From positions 1-64,000 of the forward strand of contig JAFVRJ010000005.1 of assembly GCA_017504305.1 (NCBI GenBank): a stretch of 64,000 bases of DNA. The letters run 5' to 3'. Below the pieces are notes generated by a model. It searched no databases. It was not told the DNA's origin and saw nothing but the letters and a program-made list of their open reading frames with translations. Each line of letters opens with the position of its first letter. Position 1 is the first letter of the stretch. The stretch is from Clostridia bacterium. Lineage in GTDB: Bacteria > Bacillota > Clostridia > Christensenellales > DTU072. This document shows positions 7,995 through 56,406 of the stretch, piece after piece. The position numbers were made by a program, and so were the translations under genes.

Positions 7995-8013
7995 AGCCCG
8001 TTTAAAACGGGCT
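7995..8013 (-). terminator. Terminator-like hairpin after pgk
   Basis: AGCCCGTT/AACGGGCT with a 3-nt loop is followed on the minus strand by TTTTCGTT. The T run is short, and the next gene starts only 16 nt on, so partial readthrough into the flavoprotein operon is likely. No separate promoter was seen. Confidence 0.6.
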
Positions 8014-8018
8014 CTATT

Positions 8019-9257
8019 TTATTTTGAATTTAACATTGCTTCTATGAGCGGTAAGCGTTTTCCGCTTAAGAAGCGTACCATTGCTCCGCCCGCGGTACAA
8101 ACGTAATCGATACTCTTAAGATCAATAAACTTTGCCGCAGCGGTTACCGTATCACCGCCACCTATTACGGAGTATGCAGGGCTATTTGCAATCGCGTTCC
8201 AAATCTTATCGGTGCCGTATGCAAATATCGGATTTTCATATACCCCTGCAGGACCGTTAACGAATATCGTACCGGCTTTCATAAGTTCATCTTTGAATAT
8301 TCCAACCGATTTTGCGCCGATGTCAAGAAGCATCGCTTGATCGTTTAATAAATCCTCAAGATCCAGCTCTACTCTAACGCCATCCTTTTCATATGCAAAG
8401 TCAACGGGGAGTACGAATTTGTCGCCGTAATTTGCAAGTAGCTCTTTTGCCGGAGCCACAAATGCAAGCAAATCTCTATCGGCAAGCCATTTTTCGTAGT
8501 TAGCACCGATTTTATAGCCTTGCGCAAGGCGCATAACTACGCCCGTTACGCCTGCGGTTATAATTTTATCGGCAACACCGTCCTTTAAAACCTTGCCCAT
8601 CATACCAAACGCATCGGAAATCTTTGCGCCTCCAAGTACGAATACCAAGGGCTTGTTTGCAGAAGTCATTACCTTATTAAGAGCCTCGTATTCTTTGAAG
8701 AATAAAGGGCCTGCGTAAGAGGGCATAAGTCGCTCGAAAGCAACCATGCTGGGAGCGTTACGGTGCGCTGCCGAAAAAGCATCGTTAACGTACACGTCAC
8801 ATAAAGGCGCGAGCCTACGTACAAGGTATGTAGAAGCCATTTGCTCGGCAGTTAATTTAACGTCCTTTTCAAAGGTAGAAACCTCTTCGGTAAGGTAACG
8901 TAGATTGCCAAGCAACACAACCTCACCTTCTTCAAGCGACTTGATTTTATCAAGTGCCGCGTCACCGCAAACGTCGTCGATATAGTCGACTTTAATACCG
9001 CTAATTTCGGTAAGCCTATCGGCATGCGCTTGCATGGACATGAGGTTTTGGTAATCCAAAGTGTCGCCTTGGTGTGCTATAATCGCCACTTTTGCGCCAC
9101 CATCTACCAAATACTTTAAAGTCGGTACGGTTGCATTAAGGCGGTTATCGTTGACGATAACTCCGTTTTTTACGGGTGAGTTTATATCGGGGCGGAAGAG
9201 CACAGTTTTGCCCTTGACGTCCACCCCTATTATACTTTTAATTTTTACTTCTTCCAT
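8019..9257 (-). CDS. pgk: Phosphoglycerate kinase, archaeal type
   Basis: The protein has 412 residues and catalyses 1,3-bisphosphoglycerate + ADP to 3-phosphoglycerate + ATP. It follows the archaeal rather than the bacterial pattern: DINSPV where bacteria have DFNVP, AHQG where bacteria have SHLGRP, and NDAFSAAHRNAPSMVAF. FVLGGAKISDA, LPVDFAYEKDGVRVE, VNGPAGVYENPIFAYGT and VIGGGDTVTAAAKF also match archaeal PGKs as I know them. It overlaps the archaeal-type GAPDH gene by 13 nt, so the two are co-translated. Base composition looks like the neighbours, so any transfer would be old. Whether a bacterial-type pgk exists elsewhere cannot be seen. Confidence 0.93.
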   Translation of the reverse strand: MEEVKIKSIIGVDVKGKTVLFRPDINSPVKNGVIVNDNRLNATVPTLKYLVDGGAKVAIIAHQGDTLDYQNLMSMQAHADRLTEISGIKVDYIDDVCGDAALDKIKSLEEGEVVLLGNLRYLTEEVSTFEKDVKLTAEQMASTYLVRRLAPLCDVYVNDAFSAAHRNAPSMVAFERLMPSYAGPLFFKEYEALNKVMTSANKPLVFVLGGAKISDAFGMMGKVLKDGVADKIITAGVTGVVMRLAQGYKIGANYEKWLADRDLLAFVAPAKELLANYGDKFVLPVDFAYEKDGVRVELDLEDLLNDQAMLLDIGAKSVGIFKDELMKAGTIFVNGPAGVYENPIFAYGTDKIWNAIANSPAYSVIGGGDTVTAAAKFIDLKSIDYVCTAGGAMVRFLSGKRLPLIEAMLNSK

Positions 9258-10276
9258 TTGCCAATACCAAGGTTTGCGTTGGTAGCTTGGGTTGCTTCTT
9301 CAGAAGTTTGTTGCATACCCATTACTGCACGGATACCGTCCATAGTTTCGGGGATGGTAACTGCTTCTTGAGGGATGTTGATTGCATACATAATGCTATC
9401 ACCGCTTTCTACGATGCTATCTTCCCAAAGAGCAATTTCATACATATCGCCACGGGGATTGCCGAGGTCGCGAGCGTAACGAAACAAGGAGGCGTTGCCA
9501 AGGAAGCCGTCCTTAATGCTTACGATACGGATACGCGGATGCTTTTTGAAAGCTTCAAGGGCCATTTCTTTGGTGATCTTTTGCTTGCCGGTTGCAACTA
9601 CGGTGATGATATGTCCGTGAGTGATGGGGGTATGTACCAAAATGCCGGTTGCTTCTACATGAGGCATTATGGTCATAAGGTCAACCGCTTGGTGCGAAGG
9701 AGCTTTATCGATTTGCAAAGCGTTGGTTAAACCTCTATGGTAATCACCGGGATCTGCTACACGACGTATAATGGTGATAGCTACTCTATCGATGCCGTAT
9801 GCTCTATCGAGGCAGTCAACGCTACGGATAAGACCGGTAGTGTTGCAAGAGGTGAGTTTTAAAAAGTCTTTATTGAGGCCTTTTTCGTAGTTAGCGTATC
9901 CGTGGAAAAATACGTCGGCAACGCTGTTCTTTTCGCCACCTTGGAAAATCGCCTTTTTGCCAAGTCTTTCATAAAGCTCTTTATTGCGAGCGCCGATACC
10001 GCCGGGCGAGGAGTCGAGTACTACGTCACACTTTTTAACCATGTCTTCCATGGTACCCGCGACGGGAATACCAAGTGCTTCAAACTCTGCGCGCTTGTCT
10101 TCACTTGCAAGATAAAGATCGTAAGGCATGCCCTTTTCAAACAATGCTCTTACTGCAAGAGTGGGTGCTACGTCAGCTACGCCAACGAGTTCCATATCTT
10201 TTTGCAAAGCTACACCATCAGCCAAACGTTGACCGATTACGCCATAACCGGCAACACCAACTTTAACTTTTGCCAT
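9245..10276 (-). CDS. gap: Glyceraldehyde-3-phosphate dehydrogenase, archaeal type (class II)
   Basis: The 343-residue protein has an N-terminal Rossmann motif (GYGVIGQRLADGV, about residues 10-22). The class II GAPDH signatures include SSPGGIGARNKELYE, AIFQGGEKNSVADV and the catalytic SCNTTGL with Cys144, followed by IRRVADPGDYHRG. Bacterial class I GAPDH has SCTTNC instead. Archaeal homologues oxidise GAP with NAD(P) to 1,3-bisphosphoglycerate (EC 1.2.1.59). A clear AAGGAGATATTT site precedes the ATG. The next gene is archaeal-type pgk, so consecutive glycolytic steps are encoded as a unit. It lies 28 nt behind the LURP-one gene and is probably cotranscribed with it. Confidence 0.94.
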   Translation of the reverse strand: MAKVKVGVAGYGVIGQRLADGVALQKDMELVGVADVAPTLAVRALFEKGMPYDLYLASEDKRAEFEALGIPVAGTMEDMVKKCDVVLDSSPGGIGARNKELYERLGKKAIFQGGEKNSVADVFFHGYANYEKGLNKDFLKLTSCNTTGLIRSVDCLDRAYGIDRVAITIIRRVADPGDYHRGLTNALQIDKAPSHQAVDLMTIMPHVEATGILVHTPITHGHIITVVATGKQKITKEMALEAFKKHPRIRIVSIKDGFLGNASLFRYARDLGNPRGDMYEIALWEDSIVESGDSIMYAINIPQEAVTIPETMDGIRAVMGMQQTSEEATQATNANLGIGKWKK

Positions 10277-10304
10277 AAATATCTCCTTCAGTCAGTTAAT
10301 ATGA

Positions 10305-14848: not shown

Positions 14849-15271
14849 ATGGATTACGTACAAAGAGCAAAAGATTACTTCACCGAAGGATACAATTGCG
14901 CGCAAGCAGTTGCTATGGCACTTGCTCCAGCAGTAAATCAAACCGAAGACCATATGCGCGCTATAGCAAACCCCTTTGGCGGTGGCTTCACAAGACTACG
15001 CGAGGTCTGCGGAGCAGTTAGCGGTATGATGATGATCATAGGTCTTAAGCATCCCGAGATGACCAAGCAAGAGATGTACGAGTTCGGCCGTAAAGCTATA
15101 GAGGAGTTCAAAGAAATTTGCGGATCCTATATCTGTAAAGACCTTATAAACGCAACGGACAACAAATCCACCACCCCCGAAACTCGTACCGCAAGCTACT
15201 ACGCCAAGCGCCCCTGTTTGGAGATAGTAGAAATAGCTACCAAAATAACCTTAAAATATATTGCCGATTAA
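14849..15271 (+). CDS. C_GCAxxG_C_C family redox-type protein
   Basis: The 140-residue protein carries the family signature: YNCAQAV near residue 15, then FGGGFTRLREVCGAVSGMMM in the middle, followed by spaced Cys residues (ICGSYICKDL and the C-terminal RPCLEIV). These conserved cysteines suggest a metal- or redox-active centre; no member has a firm biochemical role. It starts 1 nt after the glnN stop and is therefore translationally coupled to glutamine synthetase. Confidence 0.85.
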   Translation: MDYVQRAKDYFTEGYNCAQAVAMALAPAVNQTEDHMRAIANPFGGGFTRLREVCGAVSGMMMIIGLKHPEMTKQEMYEFGRKAIEEFKEICGSYICKDLINATDNKSTTPETRTASYYAKRPCLEIVEIATKITLKYIAD

Positions 15272-15289
15272 CTCAAGGAGGAAGATAAA

Positions 15290-15991
15290 ATGACAAGATT
15301 TATCGCACACCGTGGCTTAAGCGCTGTATACTATCAAAACAGCGAAAAGGCTTTCCAAGCAGCTGCAGATAGCTCGTTCTTCTACGGCATCGAAACCGAC
15401 GTATGGTTTACTTCCGACAACAAATGGGTATGTTGCCACGATAACAATCCGTTCGCAAATGAAGCGATTTCGGTATCCAAAATAACTTTAGAGGAAGCCC
15501 TAAAGCTCCCTATGAACTTAAACAAGATCGGTAGTGCAAAAATCGAAGGCGAGAGCTACATCTGCACTTTAGAGAAATATCTTAAAATTTGCAAAGGTGG
15601 CGACAAAGTTCCCGTAATTGAGTTAAAGTGTACTCCCTCCCGTGAGCAACTTAAGGATTTAGTAGCCATAGTAGATAGCATCATCGGTATCGAAAACGTA
15701 GTGTTTATCAGCTTCCATTATATAAACATGGCACGCTTAAGGTCCCTCAATAAAAAGATACGTCTTCAAGTGCTCGGCAGATACCCTACGTCGGGAAGAG
15801 CCTTCTTATCCAAAGGTTACGACGTTGACCTTATGTGGAACTTCTGTCCGGCAAGGCTTATCCGCAAAGCACATCGCATGGGACATGAGGTTAATATTTG
15901 GACTGTAAACCAACTTGCAGTTGTTAGACATTTTATGTACTATGCCGTTGACTACATTACCACCAATAAAGACTTTAGCGGAAAAATTTAA
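15290..15991 (+). CDS. Glycerophosphodiester phosphodiesterase family protein
   Basis: The 233-residue protein shows the GDPD pattern: IAHRGL at residues 5-10, the metal-binding ETDVWFTSDNKWVCCHD (about residues 34-50), a middle PVIELK, and a C-terminal VNIWTVN. Members hydrolyse glycerophosphodiesters to glycerol-3-phosphate and an alcohol. There is no signal peptide, so it is probably cytoplasmic. A strong AAGGAGGAAG precedes the ATG. It is last in the glnN operon, before a bidirectional terminator. Confidence 0.9.
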   Translation: MTRFIAHRGLSAVYYQNSEKAFQAAADSSFFYGIETDVWFTSDNKWVCCHDNNPFANEAISVSKITLEEALKLPMNLNKIGSAKIEGESYICTLEKYLKICKGGDKVPVIELKCTPSREQLKDLVAIVDSIIGIENVVFISFHYINMARLRSLNKKIRLQVLGRYPTSGRAFLSKGYDVDLMWNFCPARLIRKAHRMGHEVNIWTVNQLAVVRHFMYYAVDYITTNKDFSGKI

Positions 15992-32437: not shown

Positions 32438-35400
32438 ATGTTCAAATTTCTAAAAAGAGCTATAATTTTATTTACGCTATTTATTTTTGCCATTTGCATT
32501 CTTACTGCTTGTAATAAAACTATAAAATTTAAGCTTAATTTTATCGTTGATGGAGCAATTTACTTTACTATAGATACTGAGGGCAACAATACGATTGAGC
32601 TCCCTACCAATCCTACCAAAGAAGGTTATTTCTTTGATGGCTGGTATTGGGATGAAAACACTTGGCAACGGCCCTTTACTGCAAACTCTCTTCTTGATGC
32701 ACCCCTATCCTCAGACATTAACGTCTACGCCAAGTTCAATCATAATCACAGTGATAATGATTGGCTAATTATTTCGACAATCCCTGCGACTGAAGATACT
32801 GATGGATATATAAACTATATTTGTCAAGTATGTAGTGAAACTAAAACTGAAACTATTAATAAATTAGTTCATGTACATAATTATTCTACTGAGTGGAGCA
32901 AAAACACTATCCAACATTGGCGTGAATGCATAAAAGACGGAGACAAGGTAGACCTTGCCGATCATATTTATGATTTAAGCGAGATTCTTTTACAGCCCAC
33001 CGAGGACACAACTGGCACTATTAAGTATACATGTTCAACTTGCAATTACTCTAAAACCGAGACGTTAGAAAAATTACCCCATACACATAAATATTCTAGC
33101 GATTGGCAAACCAATAGTACCCAGCATTGGCACGAGTGTCCAAAAGACGGAGATAAGTCTAATATCGCTAACCACGATTATGATAATGGATTTATCACTA
33201 AAGATCCTACGGAATTTGATTATGGTGAAATTGTCTATACCTGTTTAGTTTGTGAATATAAGAAATCCGAGCAACTTCCAAAGTTAATTATTGATAGATC
33301 AGGTGCCGAGCTGCTAAACGCTGAAGGTTTTGCATTTGTTGATAATAATGGTAAAATCTCTTTATCAAATGCTACTGAAACTTATTCTTTTATCAACCAA
33401 ATAACAGTTAGCGACTATGCTACTTGGACGATATCTACTGATATTTATGGAATAAATACTATAGTCACAAAAACTATACCTCTTGCTATCGGTGACAACG
33501 TGGTTTATTTGCTAATCACTTCCGGCGATGGTAACAATATATCTTTATATACTATGACCATTCGTCGTCGCCCTATTTACACCGTTTCATTTAACACAGG
33601 AATTGAAACAACCGTTCCAAATCAATACATAGAAGAAACTTATTGTGCAAGCGAGCCTATTGCACTGCATCGCGATGGATATAAATCATATGCATGGGAT
33701 CATTCTTTTGAAAATCCTATCATGCAAGAAACAACCATCAATGCCATTTGGACACCAAACACAAACACGAAATACCAAGTAGAATATTACCATCAAAACC
33801 TTGAAAACGACGATTTTAGTCTGATTACAACAGATACACTTGAGGGTACAACTGATACCATCATAAACGCTAACATTAAAGAATATCAACACTTTACTTT
33901 GAATGAAACAATTAGCACTTTGTCAGGAAACCTTAACGGAGATGAAAGCACTGTACTTAAGGTCTACTATAATAGAAACAGTTACAAGGTCACCATATCT
34001 TCAACCGCCAACGTAACCATAAACAATCCTATTGATGGTTACTATAAATATGGATATACTATACCATCAACTACTGCAACTTTTAACAATTTCCTTGGAT
34101 ATGACTACTTGGGTTGGTTTAAGAATGATGTTTACATTAGCGATCACACAATCCCAAGCTTTGGTGTAAATGAAACAGTAGAATACATCGCTAAAGATAA
34201 AATTAGAGATGATATTTCCTCATTTGCCTTTACTTCTACAACCAAAGAATGCATCATCACTGGACTTCTTAACAAAACTTTAACAGATGTCGATTTGCCA
34301 AATTATGCTACAGAAATAAGTGAACAAGCATTCTCCAATTGCAACAATCTAACAAACATAAAAATCCCCAACTCCATAACGGGCATAGGAAGCGGAGCTT
34401 TTACTGGTTGCTCATCCCTTGAAAGTATGACATTGCCATTTGTCGGTGAGTCTGCAAGTGCAACAAGTGCATCAAGTAATACATTGTTTGGATATATATT
34501 TGGAACTTCATCATATGAGGGTGGCGTTTCAACAAAACAAACTTATAATGGTTACAGTTATACAACATATCATATACCAAGTTCACTTAAATCAGTAACA
34601 ATAACTGGTGGCAAAAATCTATTTGGTGCTTTCTATGGTTGCGAGAATCTCATAAGCATACAAATCCCCGACTCCGTAACGAGCATAGGAGATTATGCCT
34701 TCCGTTATTGCAGTAGTCTAACGAGCGTAACAATCCCCGACTCCGTAACGAGCATAGGATGGTATGCATTCTATGGTTGCAGTAGTCTAACGAGCGTAAC
34801 AATCCCCGACTCCGTAACGAGCATAGGATGGTATGCCTTCGAAGGTTGCAGTAGTCTCACAAGCGTAACAATCGGCAGCTCCGTAACGAGCATAGGAAGT
34901 GATGCATTCTATGATTGCCCCAAGCTTGTAGAAGTCTATAATCTATCCACACTTAGCATAACTAAAGGAAGTTCAAGCGATGGTTACGTGGGATACTATG
35001 CAAAGAACGTATATACAACAACGTCTGGTGAAAGCAAACTATCAACGGATAGTAATGGTTATATAATCTATACCGATGGAAAGGAAAAGATACTTATAGG
35101 ATATACCGGCAATGAAACCGAGTTAACCCTACCAAAGGATATATCTGAAATATATAAAAACGCATTCCGTGGTTGCAGTAGTCTAACGAGCGTAACAATA
35201 GGTAACTCCGTAACGAGCATAGGAAGTTCTGCCTTCTATAATTGCACCAGTTTAACGAGCGTAGATTACACAGGAACAATAGACCAATGGGTACAAATAA
35301 AGTTTGGTTCTTATTCTTCAAATCCAATATATTATGCTAAAAACCTATATATAAGCAATGAATTAGTAACTGAAGCAAATATAACGACAGCAACAAGTAT

Positions 35401-36145
35401 CAATGCTTATGCATTCTATGGTTGCAGTAGTCTAACAAGAGTAGTAATCCCTGATCTCGTAACGAGCATAGGAAGTTATGCCTTCGAAGGTTGCAGTAGT
35501 CTCACAAGCGTAACAATCGGTGACTCCGTAACGAGCATAGGAAGGTCTGCCTTCGAAGGTTGCAGTAGTCTAACGAGCGTAGTAATCCCTGATCTCGTAA
35601 CGAGCATAGAAGATGATGCCTTCCGTTATTGCAGTAGTCTAACGAGCGTAGTAATCGGTAACTCCGTAACGAGCATAGGATGGTCTGCCTTCTATGGTTG
35701 CAGTAGTCTAACGAGCGTAACTATTGGCAACTCGGTAACGAGCATAGGAAATTCTGCATTCTATGGTTGCAGTAGTCTAACGAGCGTAGTAATCGGTGAC
35801 TCCGTAACGAGCATAGGAGGTTCTGCCTTCTCTGGTTGCAGTAGTCTAACAAGAGTAGTAATCCCTGATTTGGTAACAAGCATAGGAAGTTATGCATTCT
35901 GTGATTGCACCAGTTTAACGAGCGTAACGATAGGGAACTCCGTAACGAGCATAGGAGATTATGCCTTCTATAAATGCAGTAGTCTAACGAGCATTACTTT
36001 TGAAGACCCCACTACTTGGTATTATACGCCAGACTGGTTGCAATGGGATAAGAGAACAGGAGGGTCACGTTATAATGTTTCCTCCCCTACAAAGAATGCT
36101 GAACAATTTGTATACTACAAAGAATTTTATTGGTATAAAAAATAA
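32438..36145 (+). CDS. BspA-type leucine-rich repeat surface lipoprotein
   Basis: The 1235-residue protein has a signal peptide with lipobox LTAC (Cys25). An InlB-type B-repeat follows at about residues 30-100, then three Cys-X2-Cys modules of about 50 residues (roughly 115-280). Further beta domains lead to about 18 BspA-type LRRs (residues 620-1190; consensus TSVTIGDSVTSIGxxAFxGCSSL). It would be anchored to the outer membrane leaflet facing out; such proteins often bind host or other cells. The LRR-coding DNA has 69-bp near-identical units that could recombine. It is A+T-richer than the surrounding genes. Confidence 0.93.
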   Translation: MFKFLKRAIILFTLFIFAICILTACNKTIKFKLNFIVDGAIYFTIDTEGNNTIELPTNPTKEGYFFDGWYWDENTWQRPFTANSLLDAPLSSDINVYAKFNHNHSDNDWLIISTIPATEDTDGYINYICQVCSETKTETINKLVHVHNYSTEWSKNTIQHWRECIKDGDKVDLADHIYDLSEILLQPTEDTTGTIKYTCSTCNYSKTETLEKLPHTHKYSSDWQTNSTQHWHECPKDGDKSNIANHDYDNGFITKDPTEFDYGEIVYTCLVCEYKKSEQLPKLIIDRSGAELLNAEGFAFVDNNGKISLSNATETYSFINQITVSDYATWTISTDIYGINTIVTKTIPLAIGDNVVYLLITSGDGNNISLYTMTIRRRPIYTVSFNTGIETTVPNQYIEETYCASEPIALHRDGYKSYAWDHSFENPIMQETTINAIWTPNTNTKYQVEYYHQNLENDDFSLITTDTLEGTTDTIINANIKEYQHFTLNETISTLSGNLNGDESTVLKVYYNRNSYKVTISSTANVTINNPIDGYYKYGYTIPSTTATFNNFLGYDYLGWFKNDVYISDHTIPSFGVNETVEYIAKDKIRDDISSFAFTSTTKECIITGLLNKTLTDVDLPNYATEISEQAFSNCNNLTNIKIPNSITGIGSGAFTGCSSLESMTLPFVGESASATSASSNTLFGYIFGTSSYEGGVSTKQTYNGYSYTTYHIPSSLKSVTITGGKNLFGAFYGCENLISIQIPDSVTSIGDYAFRYCSSLTSVTIPDSVTSIGWYAFYGCSSLTSVTIPDSVTSIGWYAFEGCSSLTSVTIGSSVTSIGSDAFYDCPKLVEVYNLSTLSITKGSSSDGYVGYYAKNVYTTTSGESKLSTDSNGYIIYTDGKEKILIGYTGNETELTLPKDISEIYKNAFRGCSSLTSVTIGNSVTSIGSSAFYNCTSLTSVDYTGTIDQWVQIKFGSYSSNPIYYAKNLYISNELVTEANITTATSINAYAFYGCSSLTRVVIPDLVTSIGSYAFEGCSSLTSVTIGDSVTSIGRSAFEGCSSLTSVVIPDLVTSIEDDAFRYCSSLTSVVIGNSVTSIGWSAFYGCSSLTSVTIGNSVTSIGNSAFYGCSSLTSVVIGDSVTSIGGSAFSGCSSLTRVVIPDLVTSIGSYAFCDCTSLTSVTIGNSVTSIGDYAFYKCSSLTSITFEDPTTWYYTPDWLQWDKRTGGSRYNVSSPTKNAEQFVYYKEFYWYKK
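34660..36000 (+). repeat. 69-bp tandem LRR-coding repeats in the BspA gene
   Basis: Units such as TCCGTAACGAGCATAGGA and GGTTGCAGTAGTCTAACGAG recur in blocks at about 34670-34920, 35170-35260 and 35400-35990, separated by unique segments. The near-identity at DNA level points to recent duplication or conversion. Confidence 0.85.
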
Positions 36146-54052: not shown

Positions 54053-54081
54053 TTGACTTTTACACTCTTTTGTGATACTAT
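54053..54081 (+). promoter_or_regulatory. Promoter of the malate dehydrogenase-malic enzyme operon
   Basis: TTGACT (54053-54058), 17 nt, and TACTAT (54076-54081) lie within the longer frame, so translation begins at the ATG at 54111. Confidence 0.72.
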
Positions 54082-54110
54082 TCAAGTTAGTACGACAAAG
54101 GAGTTTTTTT

Positions 54111-55223
54111 ATGCCTAAAATCACAGTTGATTGGAATACCGTTATCAATTTTGTAACCGACGCTTTCGTTGGCGTTGGCGTACCCCGCGAAGATGCAAAA
54201 ATCGTCACTGACGTTCTAGTTGAGTCCGACCGCAGAGGCATCGAGTCTCACGGCGTAAACCGCTTTAAGCCCATCTATATCGATAGAATTAAAGCCGGCA
54301 TCCAAAACCCTGTAACTAATTTTGAAATCGTTCGCGAAACCCCCACCACCGCCGTTGTAGACGGACACAATGGTATGGGTCAAGTAATAGGATATAAAGC
54401 CATGTCCATGGCAATCGAAAAAGCAAAGCAATATGGTATGGGTATGGTTGCTGTACGCAACTCTTGCCACTATGGTATTGCAGGTTACTATGCATCGATG
54501 GCAGCTAACGCAGGTTGCATCGGCATGACCGGTACTAACGCTCGCCCCTCCGTAGCACCTACTTTTGGTGTTGAAGGTATGTTTGGTACCAACCCCTTCA
54601 CCGTAGGTATCCCCACCGATGAAGAATTCAACTTTATCTTCGACTGCGCTACCTCTATTACCCAAAACGGTAAGATCGAGTACTACGAGCGTATCGGCGA
54701 AGCAGTTCACCCCGGCACCATCATCGATAGCGAAGGTAACGCTGTTGAAGGCGATGCAGGCGCAGCTCTTAAGGCAATCCGTAAAGGCACCGCAGCTCTT
54801 ACCCCTCTCGGTGGTATCGGCGAAGATTTAGGCGGATATAAAGGTTATGGATTCACCATGATCGTTGAATTCCTCTCTTGCATACTTCAAGACGGTATCT
54901 TCGGTAAGGCTCTTGACGGTAAAGATGAAAACGGCAACATCAAGCCCTATCAACTCGGTCACTACTTTATCGCTATCGACACCAACCACTTCCTCGGCGA
55001 AGAACTCGCTCGTAAAAAAGCAGGTGACGTTATCCGTGCTACCCGCGCTTCCAAGAAAGCTCCCGGCGCTGAAAGAATTTACACCGCAGGTGAAAAAGAG
55101 TGGCTCGTATGGCAACAACGTAAGGACGTAGGCGTACCGATCAATGAATCCGTTCAACAAGAAATGATCAACGTTCGTGACGAACTCGGTTTAACTCAAT
55201 ACGTATTCCCGTGGGAAAAATAA
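54111..55223 (+). CDS. Malate/lactate dehydrogenase of the Ldh_2 family, probable malate dehydrogenase
   Basis: The protein has 370 residues from the ATG at 54111, with AAAGGAG upstream. Family blocks include the catalytic VESDRRGIESHGVNRF, VDGHNGMGQVIGYKAM, RNSCHYGIAGYYASMA and GTNPFTVGIPTDEEF. Members of this non-Rossmann family oxidise malate, lactate or other 2-hydroxy acids. The malic enzyme gene is next (10-nt gap), so malate is the favoured substrate, by context. Confidence 0.9.
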   Translation: MPKITVDWNTVINFVTDAFVGVGVPREDAKIVTDVLVESDRRGIESHGVNRFKPIYIDRIKAGIQNPVTNFEIVRETPTTAVVDGHNGMGQVIGYKAMSMAIEKAKQYGMGMVAVRNSCHYGIAGYYASMAANAGCIGMTGTNARPSVAPTFGVEGMFGTNPFTVGIPTDEEFNFIFDCATSITQNGKIEYYERIGEAVHPGTIIDSEGNAVEGDAGAALKAIRKGTAALTPLGGIGEDLGGYKGYGFTMIVEFLSCILQDGIFGKALDGKDENGNIKPYQLGHYFIAIDTNHFLGEELARKKAGDVIRATRASKKAPGAERIYTAGEKEWLVWQQRKDVGVPINESVQQEMINVRDELGLTQYVFPWEK

Positions 55224-55233
55224 GGAGTATAAT

Positions 55234-56406
55234 ATGGATTACGCAAAAGAATCTTTAAAATGTCACTACAATTGGAAAGGTAAAATCGAAGTTGTTCCGC
55301 GCGCAACCGTTTCTTCCAAAGAAGAACTTTCGCTCGCATACACTCCCGGTGTTGCTCAACCCTGCCTTGAAATCCAAAAGGATATTAATAAGTCCTACGA
55401 GCTTACCCGTCGCTGGAACCTCGTTGCCGTTATAACCGACGGTACCGCAGTTTTGGGCCTTGGCGATATCGGTCCCGAAGCAGGCATGCCCGTTATGGAA
55501 GGCAAGTGCGTACTATTCAAGGCCTTTGCAGACGTTGACGCTTTCCCTCTTTGCGTTAAGAGCAAGGACGTTGATGAAATCGTTAGAACCATCTCTTTGA
55601 TTTCCGGCTCTTTTGGTGGCATCAACCTCGAAGATATTGCCGCTCCCCGTTGCTTTGAAATCGAAAGAAAACTCAAAGAGTGCACCGATATTCCGATTTT
55701 CCACGACGACCAACACGGCACCGCAGTCGTTTGTGCAGCTGCAGTTCTTAACGCAGTTAAAGTTGTTGGCAAGAAACTCGAAGATTGTACCGTAGCTTTT
55801 AGTGGTGCAGGTGCAGCAGGTTGCGCTATTGCAAAGCTCTTCCTTAAGCTCGGCGTTAAAGATATCTATATGTGCGACCGCCAAGGTATCTTGAACATAG
55901 ACGATCCCAACGTTATGGAATCCAAAAAGGATATCGCATCTATCACCAACTTTGCACGTAAGAGTGGTTCTCTTGCAGACGCAATGAAGGGTGCAGATAT
56001 CTTTGTTGGCGTAAGCGCTCCCGGCGTAGTTACTGAAGAAATGGTTGCTTCCATGGCTCCCGGCGCTATCGTAATGCCCATGGCTAACCCCGTACCGGAA
56101 ATCATGCCCGACCTCGCAAAGAAGGCAGGAGCTGCAGTTGTTGGTACCGGTAGAAGCGATTACCCCAACCAAATCAATAACGTTTTAGCTTTCCCCGGCA
56201 TCTTCCGCGGAGCATTAGACGTACGTGCTAAAGATATTAACGAGGAAATGAAGATAGCTGCTGCAAAGGCAATTGCTTCCCTTGTATCTGACGAAGAACT
56301 TTCCGCCGACTACATCATCCCCAAAGCATTTGATGAAAGAGTTGGTAAGACCGTAGCCGCAGCGGTTGCAGAAGCCGCAAGAAAGACCGGCGTTAACAGA
56401 ATCTAA
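55234..56406 (+). CDS. mae: Malic enzyme
   Basis: The 390-residue protein decarboxylates malate to pyruvate with NAD(P). It shows YTPGVAQPCLEI, VITDGTAVLGLGDIGPEAGMPVMEGK, the metal site LEDIAAPRCFEIE and FHDDQHGTA, and Rossmann FSGAGAAGCAIAKL. AAGGAG precedes the ATG. It is paired with malate dehydrogenase. The cofactor preference cannot be read with confidence. Confidence 0.94.
   Translation: MDYAKESLKCHYNWKGKIEVVPRATVSSKEELSLAYTPGVAQPCLEIQKDINKSYELTRRWNLVAVITDGTAVLGLGDIGPEAGMPVMEGKCVLFKAFADVDAFPLCVKSKDVDEIVRTISLISGSFGGINLEDIAAPRCFEIERKLKECTDIPIFHDDQHGTAVVCAAAVLNAVKVVGKKLEDCTVAFSGAGAAGCAIAKLFLKLGVKDIYMCDRQGILNIDDPNVMESKKDIASITNFARKSGSLADAMKGADIFVGVSAPGVVTEEMVASMAPGAIVMPMANPVPEIMPDLAKKAGAAVVGTGRSDYPNQINNVLAFPGIFRGALDVRAKDINEEMKIAAAKAIASLVSDEELSADYIIPKAFDERVGKTVAAAVAEAARKTGVNRI

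Follow-up and report, generated by a model that had tools for sequence, protein, structure and literature searches.

In the classical myo-inositol pathway (IolG, E, D, B, C, J and A), the established steps of IolG, IolE, IolD and IolB lead from myo-inositol to 2-deoxy-5-keto-D-gluconate. A transketolase which cleaves a non-phosphorylated acidic six-carbon ketose and hands the two-carbon unit to glyceraldehyde 3-phosphate (GAP) has been described for the sulfo-TK pathway of sulfoquinovose breakdown (SqwGH; PMC9594981). Carnitine degradation is known to convert malic semialdehyde via D-malate to pyruvate (PMC11353897), and an engineered pathway to 2,4-dihydroxybutyrate leads from malate via malyl-phosphate to malate semialdehyde (PMC5481828, PMC12104201). 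In canonical phosphoglycerate kinase (PGK), finally, the 3-phosphate of 3-phosphoglycerate is held by Arg65, Arg122 and Arg170 (PMC7729029). Here we describe a gene pair encoding members of the GAPDH and PGK families which very likely belongs to an iolC-free inositol pathway in the genomes harbouring it. Within this alternative myo-inositol pathway, which would proceed via malic semialdehyde and malyl-phosphate, the pair probably constitutes the ATP-making step.

The gene pair and its active-site residues

The window, i.e. the whole stretch of DNA that was analysed (64,000 nucleotides), contains the gene of a type II GAPDH-family dehydrogenase (343 aa; 9245..10276, minus strand) and that of a PGK-family kinase (412 aa; 8019..9257, minus strand), both of archaeal type. 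The genes overlap by 13 nt (9245..9257, minus strand), the ATG of the PGK gene being placed inside the 3' end of the GAPDH gene, and overlaps of 10-16 nt are seen again in many relatives. The GAPDH gene possesses a Shine-Dalgarno sequence rated as good (AAGGAG; 10283..10288, minus strand), and a hairpin located between the PGK gene and the next gene (7995..8013) is terminator-like on the plus strand according to a consensus scan only. The dehydrogenase matches the type II GAPDH model NF003251 with 415 bits (E 1.9e-124; curated cut-off 185) and TIGR01546 with 312 bits (E 5.5e-93; curated cut-off 233), its closest solved structures being all archaeal (2czc, 1cf2, 1b7g and 2yyy). The kinase matches PF00162 above the gathering score (362 bits, E 4.5e-108) and is closest to the archaeal structure 2cun from Pyrococcus horikoshii. 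The AF2 models of GAPDH (pLDDT 87) and PGK (pLDDT 84) have 2czc (TM 0.87-0.90) and 2cun (TM 0.89-0.90), respectively, as top PDB matches. Family models and archaeal closest structures thus confirm the overlapping pair of archaeal-type enzymes recognised in the first-pass annotation.

The kinases of such pairs differ from canonical PGK at the position of Arg65 (HxGRP). While this position is occupied by Arg or Lys in 11/11 canonical PGKs, its equivalent is Asp in 48/48 and Ser or Gly in 45/45 pair PGKs, so that none of the 93 keeps the arginine; the kinase encoded in the window has Asp. Arg21, Asp23, Asn25, Arg36, His62, Arg118, Arg151, GGAK and GGGD (Thermotoga numbering) are kept in nearly all 93 sequences and the equivalents of Arg122 and Arg170 are likewise retained. 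As these two arginines are kept and the structure of a yeast R65Q PGK is known (1qpg), the loss of Arg65 alone is no proof of another substrate. Together with the retention of the other residues checked, it fits a putative substrate with the same reacting end and another head group.

In the pair GAPDHs the catalytic Cys (SCNTTG) and His are retained. Lys33 of the archaeal NADP-type enzymes is replaced by Asp35, which is located at the end of strand beta-2, in 94 of 97 sequences. Since aspartate in place of the NADP-type lysine is the usual mark of NAD use, this residue points to NAD as the probable cofactor. The changes comprise, in M. fervidus numbering, Lys33 to Asp, Leu217 to His, Met218 to Gly, His221 to Ile and His299 to Pro, nearly all of them invariant (n = 97), and the loop bearing the catalytic His is remodelled, TP(I/V)THGHII being present in place of the archaeal TTLMHxH. 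Judged from sequence, the exchanges in both enzymes are consistent with the function proposed below, although they do not prove it.

Occurrence of the pair and its genomic context

Of 118 near relatives, 28 possess the GAPDH of the pair, among them every genome of the same genus but one; of 398 genomes sampled from the phylum, only 9 do so, the window's own counted. Across GTDB genomes 468 relatives were confirmed, the best 80 of which are bacterial without exception (Clostridia, Spirochaetota, Anaerolineae), and relatives at 76-95% identity occur in three bacterial phyla. The pair is a bacterial subfamily which extends across Bacillota, Spirochaetota and Chloroflexota. A PGK of the same type is found near the GAPDH in 77 of the best 80 relatives, mostly downstream of it and, in most spirochaetes, upstream. 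The pair PGKs fall into two clades of 48 and 45 sequences, which are about 43% identical to each other; in the PGK tree they are monophyletic, sister to a single Pyrococcus PGK and separate from the bacterial PGKs. The pair GAPDHs make up one long-stemmed clade outside the four available archaeal sequences. The two PGK clades are intermixed on the GAPDH tree and partners have therefore been exchanged between them, for which reason we rejected simple co-inheritance of GAPDH and PGK as the whole story; the pairwise identities of both proteins are correlated with r 0.52. Archaeal sequences usable in the trees were few (four GAPDHs and five PGKs), so that these trees neither establish nor rule out an archaeal origin. 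The pair PGKs group with the Pyrococcus enzyme, and the pair GAPDHs are not nested in the archaeal sequences available. Transfer of the pair as a unit from an archaeon, as suggested in the first-pass annotation, is not supported in view of the position of the GAPDH clade, the relatives in three bacterial phyla and the swapped PGK partner.

Apart from the pairs, type II GAPDHs of the bacterial clade without an adjoining PGK were observed at four loci (L069, L094, L099 and L126), and in the genome of L069 class I GAPDH was not found either. Plasmid-borne type II GAPDHs of about 35% identity occur in Pseudomonadota, Actinomycetota and others (L114 and L115; matches H1-H37). The two which were read, L114 and L115, also have Asp for Lys33 and no PGK nearby, one of the loci being situated beside nifJ and a P-type ATPase gene. 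An ArsJ-type arsenic-resistance context was considered for these plasmid genes and rejected: no arsJ is annotated near L114 or L115, and they represent a separate, 35%-identical group.

The window's genome (1.80 Mb, 97% complete, assembly contamination 0.8%) also encodes the standard versions of both enzymes, class I GAPDH and bacterial PGK, on contig C24, which is not the window's; class I GAPDH was found in 34 of the 36 other pair-bearing genomes tested. This near-universal presence and the contamination value argue against a contaminant origin of the standard copies. The pair hence constitutes an additional module, and a role as the cell's sole GAPDH is rejected. Full bacterial copies elsewhere in the genome are what the first-pass annotation had itself named as evidence against its reading.

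Clustering of the flanking genes in relatives yields iolD, iolE, iolG, iolB, a split transketolase, the Ni-dependent malate racemase LarAH6 and malic enzyme. In two genomes of the same taxonomic order as the window's (L136 and L125) these genes and the pair make up a single ten-gene run consisting of iolG, GAPDH-II, PGK, tktN, tktC, malate racemase, malic enzyme, iolE, iolB and iolD, and similar runs are present at L122, L123 (Flexilinea flocculi) and L130. An iol, transketolase, malate racemase or malic enzyme gene lies at most 4 kb from the pair in 61 of the best 80 relatives (Bacillota 25/44, Spirochaetota 27/27, Chloroflexota 9/9), and across the same 80 loci neither iolC nor iolA occurs within 4 kb. 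Clearly, the genomic linkage of the pair to inositol and malate genes is strong. Two genomes of the window's own family (G015 and G025) have the genes of GAPDH, PGK and racemase adjacent; in its genus no pathway neighbour of the pair is present within 4 kb. As a separate observation, the inositol operon of G168 (L122) holds a 6-phosphofructokinase gene (14987-15952, plus strand) between malate racemase and malic enzyme, whose product might act on transketolase products.

Several pair-bearing genomes in which iolD was not found (e.g. G193, G229, G395, G540 and G543) imply either another upstream substrate there or an incomplete reading. At several pair loci of this kind (L131-L135) the malate racemase gene adjoins the pair. 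Three of them (L131, L132 and L135) encode an E1-E2-E3 complex resembling acetoin/2-oxo acid dehydrogenase upstream of pair, racemase and malic enzyme, instead of which a transketolase is found at L133 and L134. It is our guess that an acyloin-cleaving complex could release malic semialdehyde from a different ketose acid, which would be a possible second upstream route.

The presence of the pair goes along with the absence of iolC. Among the 118 near relatives, iolC occurs in 0/27 genomes possessing iolD and the pair versus 7/10 possessing iolD without the pair (Fisher 1.2e-5, uncorrected for relatedness), and the three iolC-less genomes of the latter group are incomplete or have pair-bearing sisters. 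In a second, partly overlapping genome set the corresponding values are 0/31 and 3/3. The window's genome has no match to iolC at E 1e-40. Its iol operon (transporter-iolB-iolD-iolE-iolG) is situated on a contig other than the window's and, in a search covering this operon only, is devoid of iolA; in two genomes of the same family which lack the pair (G024 and G036) the corresponding operon also includes iolC and iolA.

IolD (845 bits), IolE (411 bits) and IolG (472 bits) of the window's genome score above cut-off, whereas IolB is divergent and better termed IolB-like (80 bits versus a cut-off of 205). The malate racemase LarAH6 (NF052593; 557 bits, cut-off 500) is encoded on a third contig; among 39 pair-bearing genomes there were 7 in which the search for a malate racemase gave no match. 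Of the two split transketolases of the genome one resides on the contig of iolBDEG. Its assignment as a dedicated part of the pathway is unsupported, since similar transketolases occur in relatives without the pair and there is no linkage to the pair in the own genus. The malic enzyme, which is proposed to catalyse the last step from L-malate to pyruvate, is encoded in the window (55234..56406, plus strand; NF009501, 378 bits, E 7.4e-113) and is the genome's place of PF00390. Directly upstream lies the gene of an Ldh_2-type (malate/sulfolactate/lactate) dehydrogenase (54072..55223, plus strand), whose best NCBIfam model, L-sulfolactate dehydrogenase, is matched with 244 bits, i.e. under the cut-off of 500; by adjacency only, an accessory malate dehydrogenase is possible. 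The pathway parts are scattered in this genome, with the pair and the malic enzyme together on the window's contig. At a further site of the window (32438-36145, plus strand) we observed a gene whose product (1235 aa) resembles surface lipoproteins and contains many leucine-rich repeats of the BspA type (CSSLTSVTIGNSVTSIG); this stretch is low in GC (0.345 versus about 0.43 around it) and the gene was possibly acquired.

A proposed route from myo-inositol to pyruvate

In the route which we propose, IolG, IolE, IolD and IolB would convert myo-inositol to 2-deoxy-5-keto-D-gluconate with no participation of the IolC kinase. Viewed as a ketose, this compound is D-threo like fructose and xylulose, which makes it a plausible transketolase donor. 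If a transketolase passed its two-carbon end on to GAP or a similar acceptor, (R)-malic semialdehyde (OHC-CHOH-CH2-COO-) would remain, the carboxylate analogue of D-glyceraldehyde 3-phosphate with CH2-COO- replacing CH2-OPO3. Type II GAPDH would turn this aldehyde, with NAD and phosphate, into malyl-phosphate, and the PGK-like kinase would use malyl-phosphate and ADP to form D-malate and ATP. Gene content, linkage, the exclusion of iolC and the residue changes are observed, and the substrates and reactions of transketolase, GAPDH and PGK are inferred. As D-malate would require racemisation before an L-malate-specific malic enzyme could act, the Ni-dependent malate racemase, which the operons do hold, would supply L-malate for conversion to pyruvate by malic enzyme. 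We accordingly propose the GAPDH of the pair as a candidate NAD-dependent phosphorylating (R)-malic semialdehyde dehydrogenase and the PGK as a candidate malyl-phosphate:ADP phosphotransferase yielding D-malate and ATP. That malic semialdehyde and malyl-phosphate/D-malate are the exact substrates appears to us a good deal more plausible than not. With slightly less confidence we suggest that a GAPDH/PGK module re-purposed for malic semialdehyde makes up a natural malyl-phosphate pathway, which would provide substrate-level ATP and be fed by several upstream routes in three anaerobe phyla. The literature searched, mostly open-access and covering inositol with type II GAPDH, malate racemase, D-malate, transketolase and malic semialdehyde, contains no description of such a pathway.

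The operon link to the inositol genes would apply equally if the pair worked in the inositol pathway on ordinary GAP and 1,3-bisphosphoglycerate and collected triose phosphate returning from transketolase and pentose phosphate reactions, any malic semialdehyde being oxidised by another enzyme. Fold and most catalytic residues are indeed those of GAPDH and PGK. We nevertheless regard this alternative as unlikely, since class I GAPDH and bacterial PGK already serve such a role, Arg65 is lost throughout the pair PGKs, and the ten-gene operons contain no other candidate oxidant of malic semialdehyde, yet do contain malate racemase and malic enzyme. The use of another GAP-like aldehyde, e.g. erythrose 4-phosphate from the neighbouring transketolase, would account for transketolase genes beside the pair and recalls E. 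coli, in which pgk adjoins epd, the gene of erythrose-4-phosphate dehydrogenase. It would, however, give no reason for the malate racemase and malic enzyme genes beside the pair and invoke a phosphorylated substrate at odds with the loss of Arg65, so that we consider it highly improbable.

There remains the view of the first-pass annotation, according to which an archaeal-type glycolytic or gluconeogenic pair was moved as a unit and altered cofactor or direction of the main pathway. While the archaeal-type families, the conserved GAPDH/PGK pairing and the clustering of the PGKs with that of Pyrococcus are in its favour, it has to face the standard GAPDH and PGK copies, the strong link to iolD with exclusion of iolC, and a GAPDH not nested in the archaeal sequences available, which renders it doubtful, if anything a little more so than the use of ordinary GAP. 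A shift in cofactor use or towards gluconeogenesis in the main pathway is disfavoured by the exchange of the NADP-type Lys for an NAD-type Asp and by a gene context indicative of inositol catabolism. What persists of this view are the archaeal-type families kept together; sole enzymes, unit transfer from an archaeon and changed cofactor or direction find no support. It has mostly been displaced by the inositol-to-malate module.

If this module is true, hundreds of anaerobe genomes, many of them from animal guts, hold a pair which is annotated as glycolytic and has another role. Inositol catabolism would possess a new branch which skips an ATP-costing kinase and gains ATP from a carboxylate analogue of GAP, iol operons without iolC would be explained, and LarAH6 malate racemases would be given a physiological role. 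It would also be a warning that a type II GAPDH accompanied by a PGK in a bacterium should not readily be taken for archaeal glycolysis.

Comparison with described systems

With archaeal type II GAPDH (NF003251, TIGR01546; 1cf2, 2czc, 1b7g, 2yyy) the GAPDH of the pair has fold, Cys/His catalysis and length in common. It is, however, only 37-41% identical, carries Asp for Lys33 and a remodelled His loop, and is a bacterial protein encoded beside inositol and malate genes. The kinase shares fold, nucleotide site and most substrate residues with phosphoglycerate kinase (PF00162; 2cun), from which it differs by Asp, Ser or Gly in place of Arg65 of HxGRP in all 93 pair members.

The proposed transketolase step resembles that of the sulfo-TK pathway, which acts on a sulfonate instead of a carboxylate and for which the ATP step of GAPDH/PGK type proposed here is not described. 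A transketolase which may be dedicated to such a step is present in the operon of many relatives, whereas in the window's own genus it is neither linked nor distinctive. Carnitine degradation involves the same intermediates as proposed here but employs a non-phosphorylating aldehyde dehydrogenase and D-malate dehydrogenase, no ATP being formed at the aldehyde step. The malyl-phosphate pathway to 2,4-dihydroxybutyrate shares intermediates with our proposal; it is man-made and runs from malate to the semialdehyde, i.e. in the opposite direction. The engineered route uses the other carboxyl group of malate.

The classical myo-inositol pathway has IolG, IolE, IolD and an IolB-like protein in common with the system described here. 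In contrast to the classical set, there is no IolC and the own operon lacks IolA, and transketolase, enzymes of GAPDH and PGK type, malate racemase and malic enzyme are proposed as replacements.
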